In this document: positions 34,023-55,436 of the stretch, piece after piece | Layout of the letters: each line of letters begins with the position of its first letter | How positions within the stretch are numbered: position 1 is the stretch's first letter | Origin: an uncultured Dehalococcoidia bacterium | GTDB lineage: Bacteria; Chloroflexota; Dehalococcoidia; Lucifugimonadales; GCA-2712585 | Assembly (NCBI GenBank): GCA_958295715.1 | Contig: OY282371.1 | Span: 710,133-774,132 of the forward strand | Length of the DNA stretch: 64,000 nucleotides | Direction: 5' to 3' | The notes under the pieces: model-generated | Told to the model about the DNA's origin: nothing | Database searches by the model: none | The model's input: only the letters and a program-made list of their open reading frames with translations | Position numbers and translations under genes: made by a program

Positions 34023-34997
34023 TTATGCCGACGCCCCCGCGCCTGCGATAAACAACCCGCCGTCCTCCTCATCCCCCGGCTCCTCCTCAACGAGGTCCTC
34101 CAGCGACGGGGCGCCGCTCTTGGGAAGGGCCACGTCGTCCATGTCGAGGATCCCTTCAATGACGTTGACCAGGAACCAGGCGTTGGAGGCGCCCATCCCG
34201 AAGGCCTCCGGCTTTGCCCTCGCGGTGTCCCGCATAATGCCGACGCCGTCCTTGTAGGGGTCGAAGGACACTATCTTTTCCAGCCTAACCCTGAAGCCCT
34301 TGACGGCGCCCTTGAAGTAGATGTGCTTGGTGGTGACGCCCAGCAGCCCGGTGTCGGTGTGCTCCATGGAGGTGGAATCCACCGCTCGGCCCTTGAAGGT
34401 TCCCGGGCGCACGTACACGCCCTTGGCGACCTTGAAACTCATGCCCATGGAACTGCCCTGGTACTCGCGCCGCGTCACCTGCTCCCGGTACTCGACGTCT
34501 GGGAAGACCCACATCAACTCCTCGCTCTTCATCAGGTTGAAGGGCAGGCGTCCGAACTTGGCCCTCGCCGCCTTCCGGTCATACCGGGGGATGACGCCCT
34601 CGTCGACCAGGGACCTGAGCAGCGTCATCATCCTGAATAGCTCGAAGTGGCCGCTCTCGTCCAGTTCCCGCTCCCCCAGTCCGAACCGCCTGCGATACAG
34701 GTTCAGCCCCCGCTTCTCATCCGTGGATAGCGAGTGATCCTCCATGGCGGCCTCGACGGCCCCGCGCCACCCCTCCGCCAGCGTTCTGGACATCTCCGCG
34801 TCAGACAACACGATGCCGGCCGTCGCCGCGGCGTCCCTGACCCGGTCGGGGAGCGCGTCTAACCCGGCGCCGCGCAGGGCGGCGTCCACGCACAACTCCC
34901 GCATAGAGCCCAAGGCCCGCTCGTGCCTATCCGCGCACTCCTTGTGCTGCCTGCGCAGGAAGCCGGCCGACTTCCCGCAGTACCTGCAATCTCCCAC
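34023..34997 (-). CDS. Unknown protein with N-terminal zinc finger
   Basis: 324 residues. Residues 3-21 (CRYCGKSAGFLRRQHKEC) form a C-x2-C...H-x3-C zinc site. A helical middle follows, then a strand-rich domain (about 195-275: GVYVRPGTFKGRAVD...LLGVTTKHIYFKGAVKGFRVRLEKIVSFDPYKDGV) resembling a bacterial PH-like fold, and an acidic tail (ual-like EDLVEEEPGDEEDGG). Family not recognised. GGAGG is close to the ATG. It sits at the edge of the accessory island, on the strand opposite the four-gene operon, with a small membrane gene beside it. Confidence 0.7.
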   Translation of the reverse strand: MGDCRYCGKSAGFLRRQHKECADRHERALGSMRELCVDAALRGAGLDALPDRVRDAAATAGIVLSDAEMSRTLAEGWRGAVEAAMEDHSLSTDEKRGLNLYRRRFGLGERELDESGHFELFRMMTLLRSLVDEGVIPRYDRKAARAKFGRLPFNLMKSEELMWVFPDVEYREQVTRREYQGSSMGMSFKVAKGVYVRPGTFKGRAVDSTSMEHTDTGLLGVTTKHIYFKGAVKGFRVRLEKIVSFDPYKDGVGIMRDTARAKPEAFGMGASNAWFLVNVIEGILDMDDVALPKSGAPSLEDLVEEEPGDEEDGGLFIAGAGASA

Positions 34998-35490: not shown

Positions 35491-35528
35491 CCAATCGCCA
35501 ACCTTCTTGCATGGTCTACAGTGAAGCC
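35491..35528 (+). repeat. First copy of duplicated promoter-region segment
   Basis: CCAATCGCCAACCTTCTTGC and the 18 bases after it match 35612-35649 at 34 of 38 positions. This copy has TACAGT where the downstream copy has the -10 hexamer TATAAT. Confidence 0.75.
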
Positions 35529-35540
35529 TTGCGGTCAGTG

Positions 35541-35613
35541 CGGAAATGGGAACCCGCCCCGTCTGCTCTGGGCGACGAATGAGCCGGGCCACGGCTCCAG
35601 CGCCCGCCGCGCC
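35541..35613 (+). pseudogene. Fragment of the SNF2 helicase gene (residues 119-143)
   Basis: 73 bases identical at 70 positions to 39112-39184 inside the helicase gene of the operon that starts just downstream. In the matching frame it still encodes GNGNPPRLLWATNEPGHGSSARRA. It lies between two copies of the operon promoter segment, as expected if a tandem duplication of the operon has collapsed. Confidence 0.85.
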
Positions 35614-35649
35614 AATCGCCAGCCTTCTTGCATAGTCTATAATGAAGCC
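35612..35649 (+). promoter_or_regulatory. Promoter segment (second copy) of the four-gene operon
   Basis: Carries a perfect TATAAT at 35638-35643, about 30 bases before the first start codon; no convincing -35 hexamer. Duplicate of 35491-35528. Confidence 0.45.
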
Positions 35650-35674: not shown

Positions 35675-36472
35675 ATGACCACCTTTGAACGGGCTTTCAA
35701 TGATGCGGAACAGGCCGCGGCCTCGACCATAAAGTCGGCGGCGGCCCTGACCTCCCTTGCCAAGCAGATGGAGAAGGCGGCCAAAACCGGTAACATCGCC
35801 CACATTAAGCGCGCCCAGACCAGCCTCAACGAAGCCTTGAGCTCCCTTGGTCAGGAGGTGTCCAACGCCGTCCATGTCTGGCCCTTCCGTGACGATGAGG
35901 AGGAGCAGCGCCTCCGTGACGACTACGCCGCCGAACTGACCGGCGTGGCCGCTTCAAAGGGCCTCAAAATTTACGAGCAGGACTCCCGGCTCATATCCCA
36001 CCCCTCCATCGTGCGAATCATGCCGGGCGAAAGGGCCGTGAGAGTCGACAAAAAGAAAGTCCCCACCATCAGACCCTCCCACTTGACAAAGCTTCTTATA
36101 GAGAATCAGGAGAAGCCCGGTCGCTACCGTTCCAACGCCTTTCTCGAGTCCCTTTACTCCGTCTACTCAGACATCGTGACCAGAGACTCCGACAATCGTC
36201 TTATCAGAGGCGGTGAGCGCGTCGTGCCCCTTAAAAGGATATACGAGCTTTTGACCGCTCTTCCTGGCGCCAGACGTGACTATAGCGCCATGGACTTCGC
36301 TAGGGACCTGTACGTCTTGGATGACAACGGCCCTAGGTGCACGAGAAAAGGCGCCGTCGTATCATTCTCGGCCTCCACCGCCACGCGGGGTTCCAGCGGC
36401 CGATTCTCCTTCGTCGGGCCCGACGGCCAGAGCGTTGATTATTACGGCATCAAGTTTACGGCAGGCGGATAA
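35675..36472 (+). CDS. Unknown protein, first gene of candidate defence operon
   Basis: 265 residues, no recognised family. Residues 1-75 are a helical, Ala/Lys-rich segment likely to be coiled coil or a helical bundle (ASTIKSAAALTSLAKQMEKAAKTG). After an acidic linker (DDEEEQRLRDD) comes an alpha/beta region with LISHPSIVRIMPGERAVRVDKKKVPTIRPSHLTKLLIENQ, then YSAMDFARDLYVLDDNGP and a Ser/Gly-rich C-terminal beta stretch. GGAG precedes the ATG. The stop overlaps the next start by one base (TAATG), so it belongs to the operon with the ATPase and helicase genes. Confidence 0.75.
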   Translation: MTTFERAFNDAEQAAASTIKSAAALTSLAKQMEKAAKTGNIAHIKRAQTSLNEALSSLGQEVSNAVHVWPFRDDEEEQRLRDDYAAELTGVAASKGLKIYEQDSRLISHPSIVRIMPGERAVRVDKKKVPTIRPSHLTKLLIENQEKPGRYRSNAFLESLYSVYSDIVTRDSDNRLIRGGERVVPLKRIYELLTALPGARRDYSAMDFARDLYVLDDNGPRCTRKGAVVSFSASTATRGSSGRFSFVGPDGQSVDYYGIKFTAGG

Positions 36473-37428
36473 TGTCGGACACCATACCTATTCAAGACTG
36501 GTTGCAAATCATTGACAGGGAATACCTGTCCACCTTCATCAAGGATGGCGGCGCGTCGGTAAAGTTTGCCGTCACCCCTGATCCGCTGAAATCCAACTTG
36601 GACGCGGAAGTGAGCGGCTATTGCCAGAGGATGGACTACCGCTTCGTGAAGCTGGATGCCGTGACAATCAGGGTCCACATGCCCCAGGATATCTTCTTCG
36701 GCCTAGCCCGGCAGATTGACTGGCGGTTGCTCGCCCGCCGTATGATAATGAAGCTGGCTGCCCGTGGAAGTTATACGTTGGAAGGTGTGGATCCAGCCGC
36801 TTGTGGCAATATCTTCGACGCTATCGCTAAAGCCAACGACCTGGAACCGGATTCGGTTCTCAGGGAAATCCGACCTAACATAGAAAATGCTATCCTCAAA
36901 GACACCCAGATGGCCAGGGACTTCCGAGTAGCCATGAGTCACCTCTGTTGGCTGGAGAATACCCATGAAGACGGCCATTATCAAGGGGAACCCATTCTCG
37001 ACTGGCTTACCGGCGTCAACACCCGGATAAGCAACGTCAGATCCTTCTCCATCTATACGCCCATCAACCGCGCCACCGCGAGATACTTCATTGAGTCGGC
37101 CCTGTACTGGGTCCGCCACGCGGGATACCCTGGAACGGTTATACTTCTAGATAACTCCCGCGTCACCGTTGCCCGTAACCCCAAGGACGGGCTGAGATTT
37201 TACACAAGACCCACGGCCATGGACCACTATGAGTTGTTGCGTGAATTTATAGACGACCTGGACCGGCTGGCGGGAATGCTGCTTGTGGTGGTTACAAATC
37301 AGGATTTCGCTGAGGAAAACAAACCCAGGAGCTATAGGATCTACCAAGCCCTTCGCTACAGGATAATGAACGACGTTAGAGATAGGAACCGGGTCAATCC
37401 CATCGCATCGCTGGTTGGGCTGGAGTAA
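36472..37428 (+). CDS. Probable BrxD-related protein with degenerate P-loop
   Basis: 318 residues. The start WLQIIDREYLSTFIKDGGASVKFAVTPDP resembles the beginning of BrxD/DUF2791-type ATPases, where the GG-x-KF strand leads into a GxGSGKTH loop; here that loop reads AVTPDPLKSN, without Gly-Lys-Thr. Later GYPGTVILLDNSRV is placed like Walker B but lacks the DE pair. I infer an inactive ATPase-fold partner for the next protein; the family relation is from memory of motif layout, not a search. Coupled by one-base overlap to the previous gene. Confidence 0.6.
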   Translation: MSDTIPIQDWLQIIDREYLSTFIKDGGASVKFAVTPDPLKSNLDAEVSGYCQRMDYRFVKLDAVTIRVHMPQDIFFGLARQIDWRLLARRMIMKLAARGSYTLEGVDPAACGNIFDAIAKANDLEPDSVLREIRPNIENAILKDTQMARDFRVAMSHLCWLENTHEDGHYQGEPILDWLTGVNTRISNVRSFSIYTPINRATARYFIESALYWVRHAGYPGTVILLDNSRVTVARNPKDGLRFYTRPTAMDHYELLREFIDDLDRLAGMLLVVVTNQDFAEENKPRSYRIYQALRYRIMNDVRDRNRVNPIASLVGLE

Positions 37429-37443
37429 GGAGGGACTTGTTTG

Positions 37444-38730
37444 ATGGGGCCTCACACTGATATAGACCTGGTCTCCCGTCGCGCCATAGAAGCCCTGCGC
37501 AGTGGCGTGCCCAACAGGGATGCGGTCAAGATTCTTGGTTGCAACCAGCCCCAGGCGGAAGAACGGTTCGATAAGATGTTGGCTCTGGCAACGGACGTGG
37601 ACAACCCGCCGGGCGACGCTCTGGGGATGCTGGTCACTGGCGGCTTCGGGACTGGCAAGTCCCATCTGCTCACCTATTTGGAAGACAAAGCCCTCTCTGA
37701 AGGGTTCGTTTGCAGCAGGGTGACCATCAGCAAGGAAACGCCTCTCTACGACCTAGGCAAGGTCTTCAAGTCGGCGGTGGAGAACGGGCAGGTCCCTGGC
37801 CGCAGAGGCCAGATGATGGAAGAGCTTGGACAGGTTATGGAAAAGTCCCAGCGTTACCCCGGGTTCTTCGCGTGGGCCAACGGAGCGGCTTCCGATGGCC
37901 TGCTCAACCAGATATTTCCCGCCACCTTGAGCGTCCATGAATACTCGAGGGACCTTGAACTCAATACTGAGTTGGAGCGCTTTTGGGGTGGAGATAGGAT
38001 AAAGGTCAAGACAGTCAAGGATGGCCTCAGACAGATAGGGCAGCTCCTGAACTACACCTTTCGCGCCCCCAAGGCCGCGGACCTGCCTCCCCAGCGCCTG
38101 CGGTTCGTCACCGAACTTATCAAGGGCGCCGGCTATAACGGTTGGGTTGTGCTTCTCGACGAGATAGAGTTGGTCAGCCACTACACGCTGTTGCAGCGCG
38201 GCAGGTCTTACGCGGAGTTGGCCCGGTGGATGGGCCAGACTTTTAGCGAAGTCTATCCGGGCCTCGTTGTCGTTGGCGCCGTTACCGATGACTTCGCTTC
38301 AGCCGTCATTAGCCCGGACGGTCAGAAGAAGGACGAGGATAACATCGTGCACAAAATGGTGAGTACCGCGAGGTACCGTGCTATAGCCCCGCAAGCCAAG
38401 ACGGGAATGCAGCTTCTGGTGGGGGAATGCCAACCCTTGGGCGCTCCCAGCGACGACGACGTGAGGGATGTCTTGGAAATGCTGCGCCAGATTTATACTG
38501 AAGCCTATTCATGGCCGGCCCAATCCACTCAAATCAAGACCAGCGGCGTAGGTTATGAGAGAACGATGCGTTACAAGGTGCGCGCCGCCGTCAACGAGTG
38601 GGACCTGCTGCGACTATACCCCGGATTCCGCCCCGAGCCCGTCAGCACCGAATTTCTCCATAATTATGAAGAAGATTCTGCCTTGGAGGGAGATCCCAAG
38701 GATGATGACGCCTCCACCGACGCCCGGTAG
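37444..38730 (+). CDS. BrxD-like P-loop ATPase (DUF2791-type)
   Basis: About 428 residues. Walker A is GGFGTGKSH (about 66-74) and Walker B LLDEIEL (about 240), followed by RGRSYAELARWMG and KVRAAVNEWDLLRLYPGFRP. This matches the BrxD ATP-binding proteins of BREX types that pair with a helicase, but none of the other BREX genes (pglZ, pglX, brxC, brxL) is present. GGAGG lies ten bases before ATG 37444; a TTG one codon earlier is possible. Third gene of the operon. Confidence 0.8.
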   Translation: MGPHTDIDLVSRRAIEALRSGVPNRDAVKILGCNQPQAEERFDKMLALATDVDNPPGDALGMLVTGGFGTGKSHLLTYLEDKALSEGFVCSRVTISKETPLYDLGKVFKSAVENGQVPGRRGQMMEELGQVMEKSQRYPGFFAWANGAASDGLLNQIFPATLSVHEYSRDLELNTELERFWGGDRIKVKTVKDGLRQIGQLLNYTFRAPKAADLPPQRLRFVTELIKGAGYNGWVVLLDEIELVSHYTLLQRGRSYAELARWMGQTFSEVYPGLVVVGAVTDDFASAVISPDGQKKDEDNIVHKMVSTARYRAIAPQAKTGMQLLVGECQPLGAPSDDDVRDVLEMLRQIYTEAYSWPAQSTQIKTSGVGYERTMRYKVRAAVNEWDLLRLYPGFRPEPVSTEFLHNYEEDSALEGDPKDDDASTDAR

Positions 38731-38755
38731 CCGCCGTCGCCTCAAGGACTTGTGA

Positions 38756-40849
38756 ATGCCCATTCCCTTCCAGGACCTGTCTGAGAACGACCATGCCGAC
38801 GCCGTTGCATGGCTGCGCCTCATCAGAGAGGAAGGCGGCGGCGGGGTCAGGGCGGCCCTCTTTCACACCTCCATCCAAGGTCAACCCCTGGCCTTCTCTT
38901 TCACCCGAGCAGAGACCCCACGCCCTTATTCCACCCAGCCGGATAACGCCGACGCCTTCCGGACAACCCTAGCCAAGTCCCTGTTTCAAGCGGCCGCCCT
39001 GTCGCCGGCCCTCATCCTCTCCCTAGCCGAAGAAATGCCCCATCCAGCGTTCGCCGGACATCTGCGGCTGGGCATACCTCTGTGTCGCGTCAAGGGGGCA
39101 AGTCCCCCATTCGGAAACGGGAACCCGCCACGTCTGCTCTGGGCGACGAATGAGCCGGGCTACGGCTCCAGCGCCCGCCGCGCCCTTGACCGGATAATGG
39201 AAGGCGTCAGTCCCTTCGAGCCCTTTGAGCGCGTCGCGAAAGCCCTATCCGAAGCCTTCGCCGACCAGAGAGCACTGGCCTTGACCTCCGTTCCCGGCAT
39301 GACCACCGTGGTCAGCCTAGACTCGCCCGGTGAACGCGCCGAGCATCCGGCGGACTCTACTATGGAGGCCGGCGGAGGGCCAGGAGCGTCAACGCGGGAG
39401 GAACGCCTTCCTCCCGGACTGGCAAACCGCTTGTGGGCGGCGCTGTCGGCTCCCGGCCACGCCGGAGCCAGGAGGCGGGACTTCCAACTGGAGTGGCCCG
39501 GCACCCTGATGCCCTTCCAACTGGACGGCGTCCAAGCCCTCCTTGAAAGGGATAGGCTGCTTCTGGCCGATGACATGGGCTTGGGGAAAACCCTTCAAGC
39601 CATTGCCGCCCTGCGGATTCTGCGGAAGCGGCGCGCCATCAGGTCGTGCCTGGTGGTGGCCCCGGCCAGCCTCTTGGACCAGTGGCGGCGGGAAATCGCC
39701 AAGTGGGGGCCGGAACTATCCGCCATCATCATCCGAGGGTCGAGCTCCGACCGGGCATGGCAGTGGGCCGCGGCGGTTGACATAACCCTTGTCAGCTACG
39801 ACACCCTCCGCTCCGACTTCGGCGCCAACGCCCAGTCACCGGTGCGGCGGAAGATCTGGGACGTGGTTGTCGCCGACGAAGCCCAGCGGGTTAAGAACCG
39901 CAACGACACCAGCCAATCCCTCAAAGGTCTGCAACGGCTCCGCTCGTGGGCCCTGACCGGCACGCCCATTGAGAACCGCGAAGAGGAGTTGGCCTCAATT
40001 CTGGAGTTCGTCGACCATAACGGGCAGGGGCCACGCAAAGGCTTCTCCTCAATCCCGGCCCTTTTGGAGCGACACCGGGAGTTGCAACTCCGGCGCAAGA
40101 AGGGCGACGTGCTGGCAGACCTTCCACCCAAGCAAACAACCAAGCTCACCCTTGAGCTACACGCCAATCAGCGCAGCAGCTACGATAAGGCCGAGAATGA
40201 TGGCGTTGTCTATCTGAAGTCACTTGGGGCCGAGGTTAAGGTCCGGCACATCCTTGAGCTAATCTCCCGGCTGAAGCAGATATGCAACGCGGACCCCAAG
40301 ACGGGCGAGTCCAGCAAGCTGGCCGACATTAGGGAGCGGCTTGAGCGCCTGATAGCCCAGGGGCACAGGGCGCTGGTATTTTCCCAGTACGTCCGCGACA
40401 CCTCAGGCGTGGCCGCCGCCGCCAACTACCTGCGGGAATTCAACCCGCTCACCATTACGGGAGAGACCCCGCTAGAAGAGCGGGCCGCCGTTATCGACCG
40501 GTTCAAGACTCGGAAGGAACACGGGGCGCTGGTGCTGTCCCTGCGCGCCGGCGGCCTCGGGCTGAACCTGCAAGAGGCCTCATACGTCTTTCACCTTGAC
40601 CGTTGGTGGAACCCCGCCGTGGAGCGGCAGGCGGAAGACAGGACCCACCGGATTGGCCAAACGGTGAAGGTCAACGTTATTAAGTACGCCTGCGCCGATA
40701 CCATTGAGGAGCGGATAGACCGGGCGTTGGAGCGCAAGCAGGGCATCTTTGACCGGCTGATAGACGACGTGTCGTTGGACCTGTCGACTCAGCTGGACCG
40801 GCAGGAGTTGCTGAGCCTCTTTGGCCTCGGCGATGACGGGGTGGCGTAG
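38756..40849 (+). CDS. SNF2-family helicase with novel N-terminal region
   Basis: 697 residues. The ATPase core begins near 245: LMPFQLDGVQALLE, Walker A DMGLGKT (273-279), motif II VVADEAQRVKN, motif III ALTGTPIENR, then LVFSQYVRD, SLRAGGLGLNLQEASYVFHLDRWWNPAVERQAEDRTHRIGQ. SNF2 proteins translocate on duplex DNA. Residues 1-240 match nothing I know. Residues 119-143 are the part copied upstream of the operon. It ends 62 bases before the truncated first CRISPR repeat. Confidence 0.9.
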   Translation: MPIPFQDLSENDHADAVAWLRLIREEGGGGVRAALFHTSIQGQPLAFSFTRAETPRPYSTQPDNADAFRTTLAKSLFQAAALSPALILSLAEEMPHPAFAGHLRLGIPLCRVKGASPPFGNGNPPRLLWATNEPGYGSSARRALDRIMEGVSPFEPFERVAKALSEAFADQRALALTSVPGMTTVVSLDSPGERAEHPADSTMEAGGGPGASTREERLPPGLANRLWAALSAPGHAGARRRDFQLEWPGTLMPFQLDGVQALLERDRLLLADDMGLGKTLQAIAALRILRKRRAIRSCLVVAPASLLDQWRREIAKWGPELSAIIIRGSSSDRAWQWAAAVDITLVSYDTLRSDFGANAQSPVRRKIWDVVVADEAQRVKNRNDTSQSLKGLQRLRSWALTGTPIENREEELASILEFVDHNGQGPRKGFSSIPALLERHRELQLRRKKGDVLADLPPKQTTKLTLELHANQRSSYDKAENDGVVYLKSLGAEVKVRHILELISRLKQICNADPKTGESSKLADIRERLERLIAQGHRALVFSQYVRDTSGVAAAANYLREFNPLTITGETPLEERAAVIDRFKTRKEHGALVLSLRAGGLGLNLQEASYVFHLDRWWNPAVERQAEDRTHRIGQTVKVNVIKYACADTIEERIDRALERKQGIFDRLIDDVSLDLSTQLDRQELLSLFGLGDDGVA
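39112..39184 (+). repeat. Source copy of the 73-bp helicase-gene fragment
   Basis: In-frame coding segment of the SNF2 gene that recurs upstream of the operon at 35541-35613 with three differences. Confidence 0.85.
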
Positions 40850-40923: not shown

Positions 40924-40955
40924 TTGGGCGTTGATGTTCCACGGGTTGGACGTCC

Positions 40956-42770
40956 GCTTCAATGGGGCCGTGACTCTTCAGCCACGGATACTCGCAACAG
41001 CCGTAGGCAACTTCATGCAGACCAATAGGCTTCAATGGGGCCGTGACTCTTCAGCCACGGATACGCGACCCTCAGGCCGCCGGCCTGTGGGCCTATGGTA
41101 TGTCGCTTCAATGGGGCCGTGACTCTTCAGCCACGGATACTGGCGGCGGACATAATGGCGGAGAACCCGCGCATGGGGCTTCAATGGGGCCGTGACCCTT
41201 CAGCCACGGATACAAGTTGCACCTACCGCCCTGACGAGGCCGGGTGGCTCCTGGCCGGCTTCAATGGGGCCGTGACTCTTCAGCCACGGATACGAGGGTC
41301 GTGGTAGCCGAGTATGACACGGCGAACCTCCAACTTCAATGAGGCCGTAGCCTCTTCAGCCAAGGATACGCAGCCGGCAACATAGCCGGAGTAAGCAAGA
41401 AAACAATGCTTCAATGGGGCCGTGGGTTTTAAGCCACGGATACGATGATAATATCCTCAACAGTCTCTCCTGGAACTAGTAAGCTTCAATGGGGCCGTGA
41501 CTCCTCAGCCACGGATACGCCGCCAGACAAAGAGGGCGCGGCAATCCACAGTCAGGCTTCAATGGGGCCGTGACTCTTCAGCCACGGATACTGCATGAAG
41601 AGCCTAGGCAACTTGAAGCCCCCAATCTGCTTCAATGAGGCCGTAGCCTCTTCAACCACGGAGACGCGGGCAACGGCGTCAACACCGGCCGAATCCTCTG
41701 CGTGCTTCAATGGGGCCGTGACTCTTCAGCCACGGATACGCGGGTCGTGGTGGCCGAGTATGACACGGCGAACCTCCAACTTCAATGGGGCCGTGGCTCT
41801 TCAGCCACGGATACCTCGCGACTGTGGCCGGCTTCCTCGCCGCCGAGCAGGGGCTTCAATGGGGCCGTGACTTCTCAGCCACGGATACTCGCTGGGTACT
41901 GGTCTCTCTTACTGGCATGGTCTAGTGCTTCAATGGGGCCGTAACTTTTCAGCCACGGATACGCGGGTCGTGGTAGCCGAGTATGACACGGCGAACCTCC
42001 AACTTCAATGAGTCCGTAGCCTCTTCAGCCACGGATACTGGGCAGCGTGATGGACGCCCTCCAGGGGGTAGTCTGGCTTCAATGGGGCCGTGACTCTTCA
42101 GCCACGGATACGTGTCAACTCCAACAACACGTTTACCGTGCACGGCTAGCTTCAATGGGGCCGTGACTCTTCAGCCACGGATACGAGGACTCGCGCATGA
42201 AACTCGAGCTGAACCTTTACGCGCTTCAATGGGGCCTTGGCTCTTCAGCCACGGATACATCAGGCTTGGAATGAGGATGATACTGTCTTTATGGTGCTTC
42301 AATGGGGCCGTGACTCTTCAGCCACGGATACCCTTAATCAAGGAACATAAGCAACGCAACGATACCCTATGCTTCAATGGGGCCGTGACCCTTCAGCCAC
42401 GGATACTCGCTAGATGACGCGACACTCTCAAGCCAAGTAGGGGCACTTCAATGGGGCCGTGACTCTTCAGCCACGGATACATCATACAGGGCTTCACCCA
42501 CAACTTCGAGGCCACGCTTCAATGGGGCCGTGACTCTTCAGCCACGGATACTGACGGAACGAGTCTGATTTTCCTGGACGGCTTGACGCTTCAATGGGGC
42601 CGTGACTCTTCAGCCACGGATACGGCGCACACGGCTATCGCCTGGATTCTTGAGCAGCTGATGCTTCAATGGGGCCGTGGGTTTTAAGCCACGGATACCA
42701 GCAAAGGGAGAAAGATACGGAGGGTTTTAAATGAGCTTCAATGGGGCCGTGACTCTTCAGCCACGGATAC
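40956..42770 (-). CRISPR. CRISPR array, 25 repeats, type I-G associated
   Basis: Twenty-five repeats and 24 spacers of 35-44 bases. The plus-strand consensus repeat is 36 bases, from GCTTCAATGGGGCCGTGACT to CTTCAGCCACGGATAC. On the minus strand it starts GTATCCGTGGCTGAAG and ends ATTGAAGC, the usual type I 5' handle, so crRNAs are probably made from the minus strand, as are the cas genes. CCGTGACT/AGCCACGG can form a hairpin. Three repeats (41333, 41629, 42002) are a 37-base variant with GAGGCCGTAGCC or GAGTCCGTAGCC; two (41408, 42663) share CCGTGGGTTTTAAGCC. Spacers at 41294, 41740 and 41963 are near-identical. Confidence 0.98.
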
Positions 42771-42843: not shown

Positions 42844-44334
42844 TCACGCCGGCCCCGCAGGAACGAAGAGGCCCAGCCCGTAGTGGCATCCAAACCCCAG
42901 GACCACAGGACCGGAGACCTCCTCGTCAAACTCCAGCGTGAAGTTGAAGACCCCGCCGCCGGAGGAGCCGCCCCCGCTCTTTTTGTGGGTGTGGAAGTCG
43001 AAGGGCCTGAACCCGTTTGAGGCCCCCGTTATGGGTGGAATCTTTATCCTTGGGTCTTTTTCAAACTGAGCGCTGATTCGGCTCTGGCCCTGCGAAAAGC
43101 GCAGCGACGCCTCCCGCTTTATCTGCTCCTGAGGACTGTCCACCATGCGCTTGGAACCGTTCCCGTCCCGCGGGCCGCGGAACTTTACGTGGCGCGGCAG
43201 GACGTAGGGCGTCAACGAACGCCATCGATTCGACCGGCAGAACAGTGGCGAAACGCCAACGAAATCTTCCGCGCGGCCGTGCCCTTGGTACACCAACTGG
43301 AGTGGCTCCCGTCCCCTTCTTGGGTTCAAGGCGTCCACCGAAACCACGGCCCTAAACTCCGATGCGTCCAGCCTTCCCGGCGCCCATACCGTTAGGTGGT
43401 CCAACCGCCCGTCGCCATCCTCGTCGGTGGGCAGGTAGAAGGCGTGTCGATGCCCTTCCAACGGGTTCCCCGACTCGCCGTCCCTGCCCGAAAGGGTCGC
43501 AGACTTGCCCTTCTTGTTCTGCCTGCCATACATGGACATTGCGGACCATCGCGCCAGTTCGCCCCACCGCAGCGTGTCGAGGGCCATCGGCAATACCCTG
43601 CCCGCCAGCGCGAACCTGACCACCGTGGCCCCCTCTCCCCGCGCCTCCGGTTCCTTATCCTTAGGCTTATCGCGGAACCGGGTGAAGCAGTCCCGTTTGC
43701 GAAGGTAGGGCCACCACTGGGCCCCCACCGGTTCCATGCTTCCTCCACCCCGCATTTCGTCAATCTCCACCATCAGGTCTTTTAGCTTGATGGGATGGCG
43801 CGGGACCAGGGCGTTGACTATATCCCACTTGCCCTCCGGCAAAACCCTCGGTTCCAGGGCAAAGGAGTTCTCCTCGGGGGGATTCGACGCTATCTCTGCG
43901 TCCACCCAGGACTCCGCCCGCCCCAGATAGGGCATGTTGCGCAGAATGTTATTCAAGTCGGCCTGCTGCGACGGGTCCAGCTCCACCTCCGGCCACGTGG
44001 CGAACAGAGGGGCGTTGGGCTTTACGGCCACGAAGGAGTCAAACACCAACGTGGTCTTTTCCCTTCCGCTCTCAATAATTGGCATGTAGTGTCGCGTGTG
44101 CCCGGTTGACGCCGGCGGCAGGTGGTACTTGGGCATCCCCGACGCCAGGGCATCCAGTATGGGAACCACGCGGTCCGGGGCCAACTCCGGCAGGGTGCGC
44201 TTCCACGTGGCCACAAGGCCTCTGAGTATGCGCCACGGCGACGGCGGCCACTCCGGGACTCCCTCGTTCACTTGCCGGCCCCACTGGGTGGCGTGATACC
44301 GGTTGGCGGTGAACCTGAACTTGATTGTAAGCAT
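42844..44334 (-). CDS. csb2: Type I-G CRISPR protein Csb2 (Cas5-Cas6 type RAMP)
   Basis: 496 residues. N-terminus MLTIKFRFTANRYHATQWGRQVNEGVPEWPPSPWRILRGLVATWKR is the Csb2/GSU0054 signature. The C-terminal LGFGCHYGLGLFVPAG is the RAMP glycine-rich loop, consistent with the Cas6-like half that processes pre-crRNA. ATG 44334 lies eight bases after the csb1 stop; the frame continues upstream inside csb1 without meaning. Last gene of the cas operon, directly before the array. Confidence 0.93.
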   Translation of the reverse strand: MLTIKFRFTANRYHATQWGRQVNEGVPEWPPSPWRILRGLVATWKRTLPELAPDRVVPILDALASGMPKYHLPPASTGHTRHYMPIIESGREKTTLVFDSFVAVKPNAPLFATWPEVELDPSQQADLNNILRNMPYLGRAESWVDAEIASNPPEENSFALEPRVLPEGKWDIVNALVPRHPIKLKDLMVEIDEMRGGGSMEPVGAQWWPYLRKRDCFTRFRDKPKDKEPEARGEGATVVRFALAGRVLPMALDTLRWGELARWSAMSMYGRQNKKGKSATLSGRDGESGNPLEGHRHAFYLPTDEDGDGRLDHLTVWAPGRLDASEFRAVVSVDALNPRRGREPLQLVYQGHGRAEDFVGVSPLFCRSNRWRSLTPYVLPRHVKFRGPRDGNGSKRMVDSPQEQIKREASLRFSQGQSRISAQFEKDPRIKIPPITGASNGFRPFDFHTHKKSGGGSSGGGVFNFTLEFDEEVSGPVVLGFGCHYGLGLFVPAGPA

Positions 44335-44342
44335 CTGCGCGC

Positions 44343-45305
44343 CTACTTCCTCTGAAACTTCAGCTTGGTGATGGGCGGGTCGGCGAAAAGGCCCGCCTTG
44401 GCGCACTCGCCAATGATCCCCGGTAGGTCTGCTTCCAACTCCGGCGTCGCAGGGATGCTGAACCCTTTGGGCCGCGTCGCTTTGACGCGCACCAGGTCGA
44501 GGTCGCAGGCAGTCCGGAGTCGCAGCCCCGTGTCCAAAAACCGCCTGACCTTCCACAAGGCCAGAGTGACCAGGAACCGCTCGGCGCTTTCGCCCAAGCG
44601 GTAGGCCCGTATCTGGGCCAGGTCCAGGTTGAAGTAGGCGACAATCCGCTCCGCCGTGTACTCCGTGCGATGGAAGGGCACGTTGCCGAATCCTTTGCTA
44701 GTGTCTCCGCTGGGGTTCACAGGGTCATTCTTGACACCGCCGCTATCTACGGTTCGGACGTCTATCGCTTCTATAAACGCGGACAGAGCTCGTGGCAGGC
44801 GGTATCTTCCTCCCGCTAGCTCCCTCTTTGCGAGGAAGACCCCGTGCAGAAGCGAATTCGCGTCTATCTCCGCCAAGACGCCAGCGAGCTTGCGGAGGTC
44901 CACCTGGCCTTGAGTAGGCAAGCGATTGGTGAGTATATTCAATACTGTCTTGTCAGCGCCCTCAAGTATGTAGGGTGAGTTGAGCCTGTGTGGCTCTATT
45001 ATCGAATTGGTGGTCTGGTCTTCTTCCGTCAACTTAACGTGAACGTACGGCATACCCGTCAACGCGGGGTGCAGATTGTCGTTTGCCTCGTCCCAGCATA
45101 CGGCCTCCATGCGGTTGGCCACCGACTGGGCCGACTCCACCAGAACCATTTGCGTTCTGCCGCCGTTCTCGCCGGGGGCCTCATAGCTTGCGGCGCCCAA
45201 GTCTGGGAAGCCGGTGGGCTGGAACCGCTTGCCCTGGGCCGGTTGAAGTTCAGCCTCCATTAGAAGCCGCGGCTCCTTGGCCAGTCTCTGCCAATCAATC
45301 GTCAT
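44343..45305 (-). CDS. csb1: Type I-G CRISPR protein Csb1 (Cas7)
   Basis: 320 residues, the backbone subunit that coats crRNA in the type I-G Cascade complex. Family features: LLMEAELQPAQGKRFQPTGFPDLG at the start, VESAQSVANRMEAVCWD, and SNRLN-like SIIEPHRLNSPYI. AGGAGG precedes the ATG. Order csx17-csb1-csb2 is standard for the subtype. Confidence 0.93.
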   Translation of the reverse strand: MTIDWQRLAKEPRLLMEAELQPAQGKRFQPTGFPDLGAASYEAPGENGGRTQMVLVESAQSVANRMEAVCWDEANDNLHPALTGMPYVHVKLTEEDQTTNSIIEPHRLNSPYILEGADKTVLNILTNRLPTQGQVDLRKLAGVLAEIDANSLLHGVFLAKRELAGGRYRLPRALSAFIEAIDVRTVDSGGVKNDPVNPSGDTSKGFGNVPFHRTEYTAERIVAYFNLDLAQIRAYRLGESAERFLVTLALWKVRRFLDTGLRLRTACDLDLVRVKATRPKGFSIPATPELEADLPGIIGECAKAGLFADPPITKLKFQRK

Positions 45306-45331
45306 ATCAAGTCCTCCTAACGTTTCGGTGT

Positions 45332-47494
45332 TTATGGGTTGTCCGAAATCGCTTCTGCGGACTGCGGTTGAGCCTCTAGCCTCTCCGGCTTGCGCAAAGC
45401 CCTTTGGGCAAGGGCGCAGTGCAGCGCCTCATCCACTGGAAACAGCAGGGCCGCCGCCAGCCGCCGCCCCTGTTCTGACCCGTCCGGTATGCCGGGGTCA
45501 TCCGACAACGGCTGGAACCCGGACGCTATCAGCCGGCGGCGCGCCACCTTGTAGGCGTCCTTTACCCTGCCGGCCCGCAGAAGCGCCAGCATAGACGGCT
45601 CCATCGCAATGTCGACGTCGTCGGCTGCGAACTCCCGGCATTTGAACTTGCCGGGAAGCAGCGTCAGCTTCATCACCGCGTAAGCCATCGGCAAGTCACG
45701 GGGAGCCGTGAACCTTCGCGGGTTCTCCTCATCCTTGCGAGGCGAGAACCGCACAAAGGATAGCCCCAGGGCCAAGTCTGCCATCCTTTGAACATCCACC
45801 CTGCCGTTCAAGAAATCCACAACGTCATTCAAACGCGTCGAATAGGCCCCCTTGAGGGGTGGATGGCTCAGGTCCCGCATCCGTCCGTCAAGGCTGCGCC
45901 GCTCAAGGACCGCAAGCATGTTGGCGAGGGTGCCCCCCGCTCGCCAAACAAAGGACCTGCTCTCCTCGCTCCATTTCACGGGCCTCTGTTGAGCGTCCAC
46001 CGGCTCCAGGTTCTCGCGAACCGGCCCAACTTTCCCTTCACCAAGTATTGACGCCATGGCCCGGGCCAGCCTGAACTCGGCGGAGACGTCAGCGGCGTGA
46101 GTGGCCCACTCCCACGACAGGTTGCCCAGTGGCCGCACGTCTTTTCTAAGGCCGGACCTTGACAGCCATCGTTGGGCCCGGCCAACGGCGATTACGACAT
46201 CCTGAAGGTCCTGTTCCCGCCCCTGCTGGCAGAACTCCATGATGGCGCCCTCCAGCTGCCGCAGCGCGCCGCGCAGTCCCGCCCGGGCGTTGTTTCTTGA
46301 TGCTTCACTCCGCAGCCTATTTAGCCACGCGTCCAGGTCGAACAGGACGTTGGCCTTTGGCTGAAGCTTAACCGCGAATCTGCCGATAGGCGTTGCAAAT
46401 ACCCCGTCATTCCCCGTGCGTTGTAAGAACCCGAATCGTTGAAAAGATGATATCCCTTTCTCAACCCCAAGGCCGACAATTGCCCGAGAAAACTCTGCGC
46501 CATTAGATGCCTGCCGTCTGCCAAGTTGCGCTCTCCCCTCCATTGCAGTGTGGCTCACCTCTGCGAGAGTTGATGGCAGTTCCCACAACGGCGCCCAGAA
46601 CTCCGCTCTTCTACTACTATGTTCGGAAGATGCAGCCGTGCCGTATCCAGCAGCTGAGGGGTCGACTGTGAATGGAAACGCTGCCTTTCCGCGACTTTCC
46701 GGCGACAGTCTGCGAACCGATGCTCCCGCAAAGACCAGGGCTCCCTCTATGGCAAACAGGAAGTCCCAAGGGTTGACCATAGGGCCTGAATCAAAGCCTA
46801 CGGATGAGTTTGGCCCCCACGCTCCAGGGCCCCACTGACCACTTGGACTCCTATCCAACTGTGGATTCGTATCACCAAATATCGCTGCGCTTAGCAAATC
46901 GCGGGACCTATTCTCCTTCTTATTACGACGCTTGTTGTGACCAAGCGCGCTCACAAGGTTCTTGGCAAAGTTCATCGAAACGTCCCCGCTAGACGATGTT
47001 CCTAAAGTTCCTCCATTGCTTGTTAGAGGAGGATATTGAGGTTTCTCGCTGGTCAGTATGTATACGGCGTCAATCCAGTCCAGGGCTATGTCTGGGAAGA
47101 ACGCACGACACTTTTGCAAGATGCGATTCTTGTCCTTTTCTTGCTTGAGTATCTCGGCACTTTGCTTAATGACGTGGCGATAATCCGAGAAGCGTTCCTG
47201 AGATGACGACAAGATTGCATCTAACCCGTGCTTGTCACCCTTCGTTACGCCTGTTTTGAATCTGCCGTTCCACGGCGACACGATTGGCGTTGGCCGGTAC
47301 TCATCCAGGAAGAACCGCTCAATAGCCTCCCTGTCCAGCGTCGAACGCAGGAGGAACGCGTCGTTTCGCCACCGTGCGCGGGCGTCGGGGTCCTTCTGCT
47401 CCGACACCAGGCGAAACACGCCCAAGGCCTTCAGATACGCCATCAGCGGCTCCGGCGCGCAACCCATTAGCTCAAGTTCAAAGACTTTAGTCAC
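45332..47494 (-). CDS. csx17: Type I-G CRISPR protein Csx17 (Cas8-like large subunit)
   Basis: 720 residues. N-terminus ELELMGCAPEPLMAYLKALGVFRLVSEQKDPDARARW is diagnostic of Csx17; YPPLTSNGGTLGTSSSGDVSMNFAKN and the PWDFLFAIEGALVFAGASVRRL segment are also family-typical. It is the large subunit thought to read the PAM in I-G interference. Starts at GTG and overlaps the end of cas3 by eight bases. Confidence 0.92.
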   Translation of the reverse strand: MTKVFELELMGCAPEPLMAYLKALGVFRLVSEQKDPDARARWRNDAFLLRSTLDREAIERFFLDEYRPTPIVSPWNGRFKTGVTKGDKHGLDAILSSSQERFSDYRHVIKQSAEILKQEKDKNRILQKCRAFFPDIALDWIDAVYILTSEKPQYPPLTSNGGTLGTSSSGDVSMNFAKNLVSALGHNKRRNKKENRSRDLLSAAIFGDTNPQLDRSPSGQWGPGAWGPNSSVGFDSGPMVNPWDFLFAIEGALVFAGASVRRLSPESRGKAAFPFTVDPSAAGYGTAASSEHSSRRAEFWAPLWELPSTLAEVSHTAMEGRAQLGRRQASNGAEFSRAIVGLGVEKGISSFQRFGFLQRTGNDGVFATPIGRFAVKLQPKANVLFDLDAWLNRLRSEASRNNARAGLRGALRQLEGAIMEFCQQGREQDLQDVVIAVGRAQRWLSRSGLRKDVRPLGNLSWEWATHAADVSAEFRLARAMASILGEGKVGPVRENLEPVDAQQRPVKWSEESRSFVWRAGGTLANMLAVLERRSLDGRMRDLSHPPLKGAYSTRLNDVVDFLNGRVDVQRMADLALGLSFVRFSPRKDEENPRRFTAPRDLPMAYAVMKLTLLPGKFKCREFAADDVDIAMEPSMLALLRAGRVKDAYKVARRRLIASGFQPLSDDPGIPDGSEQGRRLAAALLFPVDEALHCALAQRALRKPERLEAQPQSAEAISDNP

Positions 47495-49931
47495 AGCTCC
47501 CCTCCTCTTTTGCGCTTGCCCTCCAGTCGGCGGCGCGCACTATCGCCTCCAGATAGGCCAACCTGAAGGGCCCCAGCCATTTCAGCAGGCCCAAGCTCCG
47601 GTCCATCCATGACCGCCGCTCCCCGTCTCCAAGCCCAACGTGGGAAATGGTCATGTCCAGCTCCGTTTCAGGTATCAGCAGTCCATTGCCCAGGTCCACC
47701 GGCGGGAGTACCTCCGGCTCCAAAACCCGGTATCCGAGCAGCAGGTCGGGGTCCGGGTTGCTGTCCTTCCCTCCGGCGCGCCTTCCCGGCAAAGACCTGA
47801 CGCTCAGCCTAACCCTGCCGTGATGGGCCATTGCCAGATACGCGGCCAAATCGCGAACTCTGCCCTCCGGCAGCGTTGAGTGTTTCAGCACGGCCAGGGC
47901 GCTGCCTAGCTCGTGGCGGAAGTGGCGGCGGTCCGGGCCGTATCCTCCACCGGACCGCTCTCTGAGTGGACTCTTCGCCATTAGTTCATCTTTGCCAGGC
48001 GCCTTCCCGCTGCCTCCCTCTCCCTTTCGCAGCATCTCCTGAAAGGCGGAGTGGGCCTTGCCCGCGTCGTGGCGCTGAGCGGCCTGTTTCACGGCCTCTC
48101 TGATGTCAGGATCGCTAATCGACTCAGACAGCGCGTCCAGAATGTCCTTCGTTTCCGACTCCACGTGGCGAGAATGGTCTGCCAGAGTCACCCATCCCTT
48201 CCGGCCCGTGTTGGTGTCTTCCGATTCGTAGCCTTCCTCCGGCTCACTCGGTTCACTCCGCTTTTCCGGAATCGATACAGTGTCCTTGCTGGAGGGGTCC
48301 CATCCGGTATCCGGTGAATACCAGCCTTGCTCAGCGTCCAGCAGCAGCGTCATGCCTGGGTGGATGTCGCTTGCCTGGACTCTTCGCCACTCCCTATCCA
48401 GAAAATCCCATCTCCAGGCCTTCCGCTTGTCGTCTCCAAGATAACCCTTTCTGCCCTTGGAGGACCCTTTGAAATCGCCAAGAGGGACTCTAACGGTTTC
48501 CCGGTGGCGAGGCTTCGGCGTATCTTTGTTGGGACCCTCTGGGGCAACATCGCGCCAAAACGCCAAAACGTCATTCTCGTCCGTTCCCCTCACGTACTGC
48601 GACACGTCGAGGTAGCTCCCCGACAGGTCAGGCGTCGTGTCGAACAGCCCCACCACGTCGCGCCTCCGAATCACTGTGAGATGGTCCGCGTCGCCCACCG
48701 CGTCACTCAACGCCTCCAGGTCCGACGGCCCCACGGAATGGCCTTCCCGTCCCCTCATAATCTCACGAGCGCGCTTCATGTCTTCCGCTTCATAGGGCGC
48801 CGCGTCCTTCTCCCCGACGTCAATCCAAAGGACGTCGCCCTTCTTGTATTCGCCTTTGCGGTTGCACCGGCCGAACCGCTGCACGAGGGACGCCCAAGGC
48901 GCAAGCTCCGTGATAAGCGTGCGAGCTGATATGTCCACCCCCGCTTCCACTGCCTGGGTAGCCACCACAATCAGGCCGGAAGGGTTTGGAGCCTTGGATA
49001 TCCGGTTGTTCTTTTCCCTCCGGTCGCATTCCCTGAACCGGGAGTGCACGAGAACGGCCTCCGCGTCCGGCGAGGCCTTTTTCACCTCCGCGTAGACCTT
49101 TTGCGCCCGGTCGACGGTATTGACTATCGCCAGAGTCAGGGCGCCGGGCTGGTGGCGGCTGGCAATCAGCTTGGCCATTTCCTTGGGTTTCTTGACGTCT
49201 ACCGATTCCTCGCGCGCGATCTTTTGCGCCCTGTGACGCTTGCTGAGGCGCGGGTCGGCCAAGTCGTCGTCTCCAAGCTCAAGTACCCGGTCGCCGGTGG
49301 GGGCGGGATGGTCAAAGGCGCCAAGCCAGTCGGGGCGCGCCGTGGCCGACATCCATACGCTGCCGGCAGGGCCATAGGTTGACAGCTTCTCCCGGAGCCC
49401 GGCCAACTGGGTCGACGTGGGCAACCCGTTGGCCATCAACTGCGCCTCGTCCATCACCCACAGGCAGTCGTTGTTCAGCAAACCGTACTCCACCGGCCAC
49501 GCGAAGGGGCTGTTTCCGTACCCTCGGTTGAGGGCGCGTGACAGCAGCATGTCCTGGACGCCTATGATGACGCACGGCCTTTCGGGCTTCAGGCTCCACC
49601 GGTCGCGCGGCTCCCCGCCCATCAGGGTGACCACGCCAACGCCGCCTTTCAGATTCAACCGCTCAAGCCAGCCCTCAACCCGCTTCACCGTCTGCTCCAC
49701 CAACGACCGCGTCGGCAGGCAGTAGACCAGACGCCGGGGCGTGGCGGCGCGCACGGCCGGGTCAGGATGTTGGAACCGCCTGTACAGCCATCCCAGGGCC
49801 GCGGCCTCCGTCTTCCCGGCCCCCGTCGGTATCCTCAGCAGGGTTCTAAGCTCCGGCTCCTCGGCAAACGACGCTTGGTACGGGTAGGGATGGAATCCCG
49901 TCGCCTTCTTGAAAAAGGCTTTGTAGCTCAT
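47487..49931 (-). CDS. cas3: Type I-G Cas3 helicase with C-terminal HD nuclease
   Basis: 814 residues. SF2 helicase motifs: IPTGAGKT (34-41), CLWVMDEAQ (157-164), SATARPD, VATQAVEAGVDIS and QRFGRCNRKG. A C-terminal HD domain (about 610-780) has HSRHVESETKD, RHDAGKAHSAF, HFRHELGSALAVL and MAHHGRVR, the order typical of I-U/I-G Cas3, in contrast to the N-terminal HD of other subtypes. It unwinds and degrades target DNA recruited by Cascade. First gene of the operon, with its own promoter. Confidence 0.95.
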   Translation of the reverse strand: MSYKAFFKKATGFHPYPYQASFAEEPELRTLLRIPTGAGKTEAAALGWLYRRFQHPDPAVRAATPRRLVYCLPTRSLVEQTVKRVEGWLERLNLKGGVGVVTLMGGEPRDRWSLKPERPCVIIGVQDMLLSRALNRGYGNSPFAWPVEYGLLNNDCLWVMDEAQLMANGLPTSTQLAGLREKLSTYGPAGSVWMSATARPDWLGAFDHPAPTGDRVLELGDDDLADPRLSKRHRAQKIAREESVDVKKPKEMAKLIASRHQPGALTLAIVNTVDRAQKVYAEVKKASPDAEAVLVHSRFRECDRREKNNRISKAPNPSGLIVVATQAVEAGVDISARTLITELAPWASLVQRFGRCNRKGEYKKGDVLWIDVGEKDAAPYEAEDMKRAREIMRGREGHSVGPSDLEALSDAVGDADHLTVIRRRDVVGLFDTTPDLSGSYLDVSQYVRGTDENDVLAFWRDVAPEGPNKDTPKPRHRETVRVPLGDFKGSSKGRKGYLGDDKRKAWRWDFLDREWRRVQASDIHPGMTLLLDAEQGWYSPDTGWDPSSKDTVSIPEKRSEPSEPEEGYESEDTNTGRKGWVTLADHSRHVESETKDILDALSESISDPDIREAVKQAAQRHDAGKAHSAFQEMLRKGEGGSGKAPGKDELMAKSPLRERSGGGYGPDRRHFRHELGSALAVLKHSTLPEGRVRDLAAYLAMAHHGRVRLSVRSLPGRRAGGKDSNPDPDLLLGYRVLEPEVLPPVDLGNGLLIPETELDMTISHVGLGDGERRSWMDRSLGLLKWLGPFRLAYLEAIVRAADWRASAKEEGSCD

Positions 49932-54866: not shown

Positions 54867-55436
54867 ATGAAGTTCACCGTTATTCTGGCTGCCCTGGCCC
54901 TGTTGCTTGGCGCGGCGGCGTGCGGCGGGAGCTTCGACCCTGAGCCCACGGCCTTTCCCTCTGCAACGCCTACCGCGGCGGTTCCGGACATCCCCCTGCT
55001 CACCGCCATAAGCTACGACAACTTGGAAATGGTGCGGACCCACATGAAGTTTGGGACGGACCCCAACGAGGCGTTTATACCCGCCGAACTCCCCTTCGAG
55101 GGGGCCTCGGCCCTCCACCTGGCCGTGCTGAAGAACAACCGTCAAATTGCGCAGACGCTTTTGGACAACGGCGCAGACATCGACATCCCGTCGAAGGACG
55201 CCTACAAGTCCACGCCGCTAATCTGGGCGGCCTTCTGGGGCATACCGGACATGGCGCGGCTGCTCCTCGACGCCGGGGCCGACGTCAACGCCAAGGACGC
55301 CTTCGGCTCCACTCCCTTGGACGCGGCCAACGCGGAGAACCCCTTTATCGGCCAGGACGACGTCGACTCCTTTGTCGAGAACCGGGCCGCCGTCAGGAGC
55401 CTGCTAACCAGCCGGGGCGGTCAGTCCGGCAGGTAG
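54867..55436 (+). CDS. Ankyrin-repeat lipoprotein
   Basis: 189 residues. Signal peptide MKFTVILAALALLLGAAACGG with a lipobox Cys near residue 20, a Pro/Thr-rich linker, then about four ankyrin repeats from residue 45 (LLTAISYDNLEMVRTHMKFG; ALHLAVLKNNRQIAQTLLDNGADID; TPLIWAAFWGIPDMARLLLDAGADVN; TPLDAANAEN). Likely a membrane-anchored protein-binding scaffold outside the cell membrane. Confidence 0.88.
   Translation: MKFTVILAALALLLGAAACGGSFDPEPTAFPSATPTAAVPDIPLLTAISYDNLEMVRTHMKFGTDPNEAFIPAELPFEGASALHLAVLKNNRQIAQTLLDNGADIDIPSKDAYKSTPLIWAAFWGIPDMARLLLDAGADVNAKDAFGSTPLDAANAENPFIGQDDVDSFVENRAAVRSLLTSRGGQSGR

Follow-up and report, generated by a model that had tools for sequence, protein, structure and literature searches.

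The window analyzed here, a stretch of 64,000 nucleotides from contig OY282371.1 of an uncultured Dehalococcoidia bacterium, harbors a four-gene operon (g1 to g4) in which a putative pseudo-ATPase, g2, is conserved next to an apparently active BrxD-like ATPase, g3, together with a cassette-specific protein, g1, and an SNF2 motor encoded by g4. We put at about even the chances that this is a self-contained, horizontally spread anti-invader cassette in which a live/dead pair of ATPases resembling those of the origin recognition complex (ORC) loads or gates the DNA motor. The operon had previously been proposed, from the sequence, to be an undescribed or reduced antiphage module (the original prediction). 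The first of these designations is borne out, in that the operon has no gene-for-gene match to any named system among the Pfam, PADLOC (2023), and NCBIfam models, and no paper describing the cassette was found in a literature search limited to open-licence papers.

The ATPase pair

Both g2 and g3 match the BrxC_BrxD family (PF10923), at 37 and 64 bits, respectively, against a Pfam gathering cut-off of 22.2. The BrxD-like Walker A and B motifs originally predicted for g3 are therefore upheld, and the description of g2 as a P-loop-less protein is correct as to the loss of Walker A but had overlooked its membership of the same family. Among the PADLOC models, g2 matches BrxD only, and g3 matches mainly BrxD and SngB. 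In an alignment of 42 sequences (37 window-type homologues of g2 and five outgroups, BrxD and SngB included), Walker A is gone from all 37 window-type proteins (VTPD-PLKSN in the window versus GGYGCGKT in BrxD), as is the glutamate of Walker B, where the motif reads LLDN, LDI, LDA, or similar. The lid is also missing from g2, which has 318 residues versus about 420, and the protein appears from these motifs to be a pseudo-ATPase with a decayed nucleotide site. One homologue, L067, is an intermediate that still has a P-loop (GRPGSGKT) and carries DG at Walker B, and the cognates of g2 on plasmids of Aulosira and Desulfomonile have both Walker motifs. R297 of g2, on the other hand, is kept in 42/42 sequences, those of BrxD and SngB among them. 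It sits in the helix ahead of the last core strand, the usual position of the arginine finger in AAA+ proteins.

The predicted structure of g2 points to an ORC/Cdc6-type AAA+ fold. When the model (predicted local distance difference test [pLDDT] of 89, predicted template modeling score of 0.89) was compared with the PDB using VIA-align, the best match was ORC2 of A. pernix (1w5t; Z 11.2 over 167 residues at 3.0 Å), with further ORC/Cdc6 chains just below it, BrxC at Z 9.7, and other AAA+ proteins at about 9; Foldseek by itself was weak for the same model (E 7e-3). A match of g2 to Spo0A_C fell under the cut-off and was taken as chance.

For g3, Walker A and the DE of Walker B are invariant (22/22), and the protein is predicted to be an active BrxD-like AAA+ ATPase. 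In a Nitrospinota metagenome-assembled genome (MAG), g2 and g3 are naturally fused in a single open frame (L031, 495-2969). Because g2 seems dead and yet keeps R297, because g3 is intact, and because of this natural fusion, it is reasonable to infer that g2 supplies g3 with an arginine in trans. We do not claim that g3 has lost its own arginine finger in return, as nearby arginines persist in most g3 proteins.

The motor, its N-terminal module, and g1

The assignment of g4 as an SNF2 helicase is secure (SNF2-rel_dom, PF00176, 155 bits; Helicase_C, PF00271, 71 bits; 12-row alignment), and g4 matches many SNF2 proteins in PADLOC. Its N-terminus, originally described as 240 residues of unknown nature, is mostly a module of ~175 residues (g4N) that occurs as a separate gene of about 190 residues in relatives. 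A search for g4N in 400 Chloroflexota genomes gave nine strong matches, window included, all of which adjoin the triad of g1, g2, and g3. In 8/9, all except the window, g4N is a standalone gene of ~190 amino acids ahead of the SNF2 gene (L056, L059, L060, L062, L064, L065, L104, and L105, the L065 contig stopping short of SNF2), and it is also separate in Entotheonella (L012). Because nine related loci thus encode the module as a gene of its own, g4 of the window is a g4N-SNF2 fusion, and the full layout of the cassette, with g4N separate from SNF2 in relatives, is g1-g2-g3-g4N-SNF2. A tenth, weak match (L108, 2870-11100) pairs a g4N-like gene with SNF2 next to a subunit of a type I restriction enzyme, with no triad, and may represent another relative of the motor half. 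In another genome (G444, L106), SNF2 follows the triad with no detectable g4N. In one locus (G045, L021 13949-15472, the same locus as L009), a transposase-like gene splits the SNF2 gene and the triad is intact.

No family in Pfam or NCBIfam was matched over its cut-off by g1, nor was any PADLOC model; a match to V-SNARE fell under the cut-off and was taken as chance. In addition to a 21-row alignment, an AlphaFold2 model of g1 (pLDDT 88) is available and consists of a coiled-coil helical hairpin, an alpha+beta middle, and, to judge by its secondary structure, a winged-helix-like C-terminal part. Compared with the PDB, only the hairpin was matched, to unrelated coiled coils, and the remainder had no match. 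Profile comparison links the C-terminal two thirds of g1 at E 3e-10 to a small set of aligned proteins, L067 and the plasmid cognates among them, whereas the link to the Aulosira protein alone is at E 0.002 only.

Recurrence and distribution

The original prediction had asked whether the same four genes recur together, and the shared order was indeed found across many phyla. A g2 profile search of the GTDB genome collection returned 23 loci spanning Acidobacteria, Entotheonella, Nitrospira(les), Chloroflexota, Binatia, Vicinamibacteria, Desulfurellaceae, Alphaproteobacteria, Rhodobacteraceae, Nitrospinota, and Lapillicoccus, most of these records being MAGs, some of them short contigs, for which individual taxon assignments (e.g., that of L013) may be wrong. 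The g1-g2-g3 order is constant at every locus with a sufficiently long contig, and this triad is the core of the cassette. When loci are compared in pairs, the identities of g1, g2, g3, and g4 rise and fall together (r 0.88-0.94, permutation p 0.001), and no further family is widespread in the surroundings of the 23 loci. Given the conserved order, the correlated distances, and the absence of any other widely recurring family, the cassette behaves as a single unit, spread patchily across phyla. Among 60 relatives, g2 is present at ~60% identity in three genomes of the same order and is missing from both sampled congeners and the four sampled family members. A sample of 301 Chloroflexota genomes contained 14 strong matches (~5%) along with weaker BrxD cross-hits, and 296 genomes from the phylum of Lapillicoccus contained three. 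Two scans of viral contigs found no relatives, phage genomes held no relative of g3, and the sole match in a plasmid search with g2 was the remote one from Aulosira.

Evidence for a probable defense role

A defense role for the cassette is probable, given the families to which its ATPases are kin, its patchy distribution, and several of its neighborhoods. The kin families are those of the defense systems BREX and Shango, the latter of which, composed of a TerB protein, an ATPase, and a helicase, lowers the plating of several Pseudomonas phages (PMC10250203). L104 has a GmrSD-like gene on one side of the cassette and Azaca ZacABC on the other, L106 has SoFic, a type IV enzyme, and PDC-S11 as neighbors, and L025 has TIR-like proteins nearby. 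The Aulosira cognate is directly behind type 2 BREX, and the Desulfomonile cognate is near AbiE genes; the operon of the window adjoins a CRISPR-cas locus. These three loci, and L024, L011, and L023 described below, are single cases of the recurrence in defense islands that the original prediction had asked about; a pooled scan, described below with the other contrary evidence, gave no clear enrichment.

Several copies of the cassette are found among ordinary metabolic genes, and ORC-like ATPases and SNF2 motors have repair, replication-restart, and chromatin-type roles elsewhere, both of which would suit a mobile housekeeping machine for DNA repair, replication restart, or a chromatin-type function. 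This seems improbable to us, however, considering the defense families to which the cassette is kin, its absence from the congeners and family members sampled and from all but a small fraction of the sampled Chloroflexota, and the interruption of g4 by a transposase in one genome.

Proposed mechanism

In the mechanism that we propose for the cassette as a loader, g3 and g2 would assemble into a hetero-oligomer, with g2 completing the active site of g3 in trans by analogy with the unequal subunits of ORC, and g1 would assist the complex in sensing or gripping DNA through contacts with DNA or protein. ATP-dependent assembly on invading DNA, such as that of a phage, would then load or license the SNF2 motor via g4N, and the motor would track along the DNA, stripping it of proteins or blocking replication and transcription of the invader, or perhaps recruiting a nuclease. 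Since the cassette is without a recognizable nuclease, any destruction of DNA would need one from the host or a neighboring system. A 2026 comparative study suggested loading or activation of BrxHI as a possible task of BrxD, on the model of replicative helicase loading (PMC12839542), and the cassette fits this idea well because little else is present.

Several observations weigh against a dedicated motor-loading defense cassette. About 13 triads with downstream sequence, about a third of those testable, have no adjacent SNF2, and in nine SNF2-less triad genomes g4N is missing altogether. The triad can therefore occur without the motor. In the pooled scan, 129 flanking proteins were not clearly richer in defense models than 130 control proteins, the control stretches holding a restriction-modification cluster by chance. 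The CRISPR-cas locus that the operon abuts, as originally predicted, with a type I-G array and cas genes following directly, was not found beside the relatives examined; this adjacency seems peculiar to the present genome, and a functional link was dropped since no relative has it. Binding of DNA by g1 is a guess from its predicted fold. Finally, family searches found no nuclease in g1 or g4 and no NADase or membrane signature in g1 or g4N, leaving the cassette with no nuclease or toxic effector found. A toxic effector hidden in g1 or g4N, with the ATPases as the trigger of abortive infection, might be suspected from the fact that both are fast-evolving and cassette-specific. We nevertheless consider it very improbable, as no such signature was detected, g4N has almost no invariant polar residues, and many SNF2-less triads are entirely without g4N.

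The SNF2-less copies are scattered over several parts of the tree, and some are near other motor-type systems. An XPB/PbeA-like helicase is directly downstream in L058, DruE-like and DpdE-like helicases are nearby in L024, DrmA and DrmB are upstream in L011, and McrB/McrC-like genes are nearby in L023 (the names McrB, McrC, and DUF3800 having been read by eye). With the BrxHI-like helicase of the plasmid cognates, this pattern would suit a triad that is a constant recognition device with no motor of its own, for which SNF2, XPB-like, DruE/DpdE, DISARM DrmAB, and McrBC are swappable restricting partners. We consider such an interchangeable sensor-loader unlikely, because SNF2 is the usual and by far the commonest motor partner and co-evolves closely with the triad, gaps of 0.1-3.4 kb separate the triad from some of the other systems, and several SNF2-less triads have no recognized motor nearby. 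The loader reading also has a broader form, which we regard as somewhat doubtful, in which a prokaryotic immune system built on an obligate live/dead ORC/Cdc6-type AAA+ pair would load SNF2-class motors onto invader DNA, or, where the motor has been swapped, machines of the XPB, DISARM/Druantia, or McrBC type, making it a general motor-loader module shared between defense systems.

The role of the BrxD-like ATPases that adjoin helicases in BREX and Shango is puzzling, and the cassette pares it to its core, namely a pair of ATPases together with a subunit of winged-helix type and a motor, methylase and phosphatase being absent. A naturally dead ATPase leads to clear predictions, an arginine finger acting in trans and loader activity, and, if these are true, ORC-like motor loading would be a principle common to BREX, Shango, and this cassette. 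The triad also marks a class of defense candidates, mostly from uncultured lineages, that the 2023 defense models missed.

The locus and its neighbors

The four open reading frames and their tight packing were confirmed (Table 1), and g1 to g4 are evidently genuine genes, since relatives at ~50-64% protein identity share their order. The stop of g1 and the ATG of g2 share one base (TAATG). Because TAAGGAGGG directly follows g2, with GGAGGG ahead of ATG 37444, this ATG is more likely than TTG 37441 to be the start of g3. The spacing between g3 and g4 is 25 nt, with AAGGA ahead of ATG 38756.

Table 1. Features of the operon (35675-40849) and of its surroundings in the window
Feature	Coordinates	Strand	Description
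g1 leader duplicate	35541..35613	+	73 nt
g1	35675..36472	+	265 aa; modeled helical hairpin, alpha+beta middle, winged-helix-like C-terminus; cassette-specific
g2	36472..37428	+	318 aa; putative pseudo-ATPase, BrxD/ORC-Cdc6 AAA+ class
g3	37441..38730	+	428-429 aa; active BrxD-like AAA+ ATPase (predicted from intact motifs)
g4	38756..40849	+	697 aa; SNF2 motor with fused N-terminal module
g4N module	38756..39280	+	g4 residues ~1-175; standalone gene in relatives
Type I-G array	40943..42770		CRISPR repeats
Type I-G cas genes	42844..49931		Effector genes
Ankyrin-repeat protein	54867..55436		189 aa

The leader of g1 contains a duplicate, 96% identical, of a g4-internal segment (39112-39184), flanked by two 38-bp direct repeats (35491-35528 and 35612-35649). 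The genome contains no further copy of this piece, and none was found ahead of the other cassettes that were checked. Duplicate and repeats are probably the relic of a collapsed tandem duplication, and the duplicate may have a regulatory role. For an empty-site comparison, the flanking gene at 34023-34997 was not found in the congeners. The CRISPR array, which begins at about 40.96 kb, has a period of about 73-75 and some 22-25 repeats, which are unusually variable, with recurring variants such as ...GTGGGTTTTAAGCC... in place of ...GTGACTCTTCAGCC... No cas1, cas2, or cas4 is beside the effector genes in the window, and the only Cas1-like match of the genome is weak and distant (G000:C1:126638-127282).

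Comparison with known systems

The closest comparisons are with Shango and with the BrxD-BrxHI pair of type 2 BREX. Shango (SngA, a TerB protein; SngB, an ATPase; SngC, a helicase) likewise places a BrxD-like ATPase beside an SF2 helicase in a compact operon, and g3 matches SngB (1.2e-5), less strongly than it matches BrxD. None of the four proteins, however, matches TerB or SngA, the g1 profile gave E above 1 against two SngA proteins, and the helicase of Shango is of the SngC/BrxHI type, whereas g4 is an SNF2 protein that aligns best to the SNF2 cores of ZorD and DpdE. The cassette further differs in having two ATPases, one of them apparently dead, and its own g1 and g4N. With no TerB protein, a different motor, and an extra dead ATPase, it is by its gene content not Shango.

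The type 2 BREX pair shares with the cassette a BrxD family ATPase (PF10923) and an SF2 motor. The cassette has a putative pseudo-ATPase as partner, SNF2 in place of BrxHI, and no BrxC or methylase in the operon. In line with the original prediction that the other BREX genes are absent, PglZ (PF08665) is missing from the genome, the search controls having matched, and at the locus BrxC and the PglX methylase are absent beside the operon, whose neighbors are APS kinase/ATP sulfurylase, two uncharacterized proteins, and the cas genes. For the NCBIfam BrxD equivalog, whose cut-off is 350 bits, the scores are 60 and 32. The cassette is not BREX, since the genome has no PglZ, and the suggestion of a reduced module is not supported; it is a complete cassette with its own specific g1 and g4N.

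The cognates on Aulosira laxa plasmid3 and Desulfomonile tiedjei pDESTI.01 have the same order of a ~280-aa protein, two BrxD-like ATPases, and an SF2 helicase, and g1 is weakly related. They differ in that both ATPases are intact, the helicase is BrxHI-like (or DEAD-box), and g4N is absent. On the Aulosira plasmid (L007, 4762-24287), type 2 BREX-like PglZ, BrxD, and BrxHI are directly ahead of the four-gene cognate, which adds two more ATPases of the BrxD type and another BrxHI-like helicase. This arrangement, together with the BrxD and SngB matches of g2 and g3, could indicate that the cassette diverged from Shango or serves type 2 BREX as an auxiliary, doing the job of SngABC or BrxD-BrxHI with changed parts. 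We give this rather little weight, less than the swappable sensor-loader, in view of the missing TerB protein, the undetectable likeness of g1 to SngA, a motor of a different SF2 family, the lack of PglZ in the genome, and the presence of two ATPases, one dead, rather than one.

ZorD, DpdE, DrmD, and BrxHII (of Zorya, Dpd, DISARM, and type 3 BREX, respectively) resemble g4 in the SNF2 core only, and their remaining domains and partner genes are unlike those of g4. The scores of g4 are well under the NCBIfam cut-offs for ZorD, DrmD, and DpdE; for type I Zorya, the ZorD core reaches 149 bits versus 1500, and no ZorA, ZorB, or ZorC partner is among the four genes. As the resemblance does not extend beyond this core, the cassette is not Zorya, DISARM, or Dpd. 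It is like the ORC/Cdc6 initiators and helicase loaders in that g2 is predicted to have their AAA+ fold class and that an active subunit is paired with an inactive one, whereas here there is no MCM, the motor is SNF2, and g2 is without a lid. The combination of a BrxD-type ATPase with an SF2 motor is thus of a known kind, and what is unusual in this cassette is the conserved live/dead ATPase pair.

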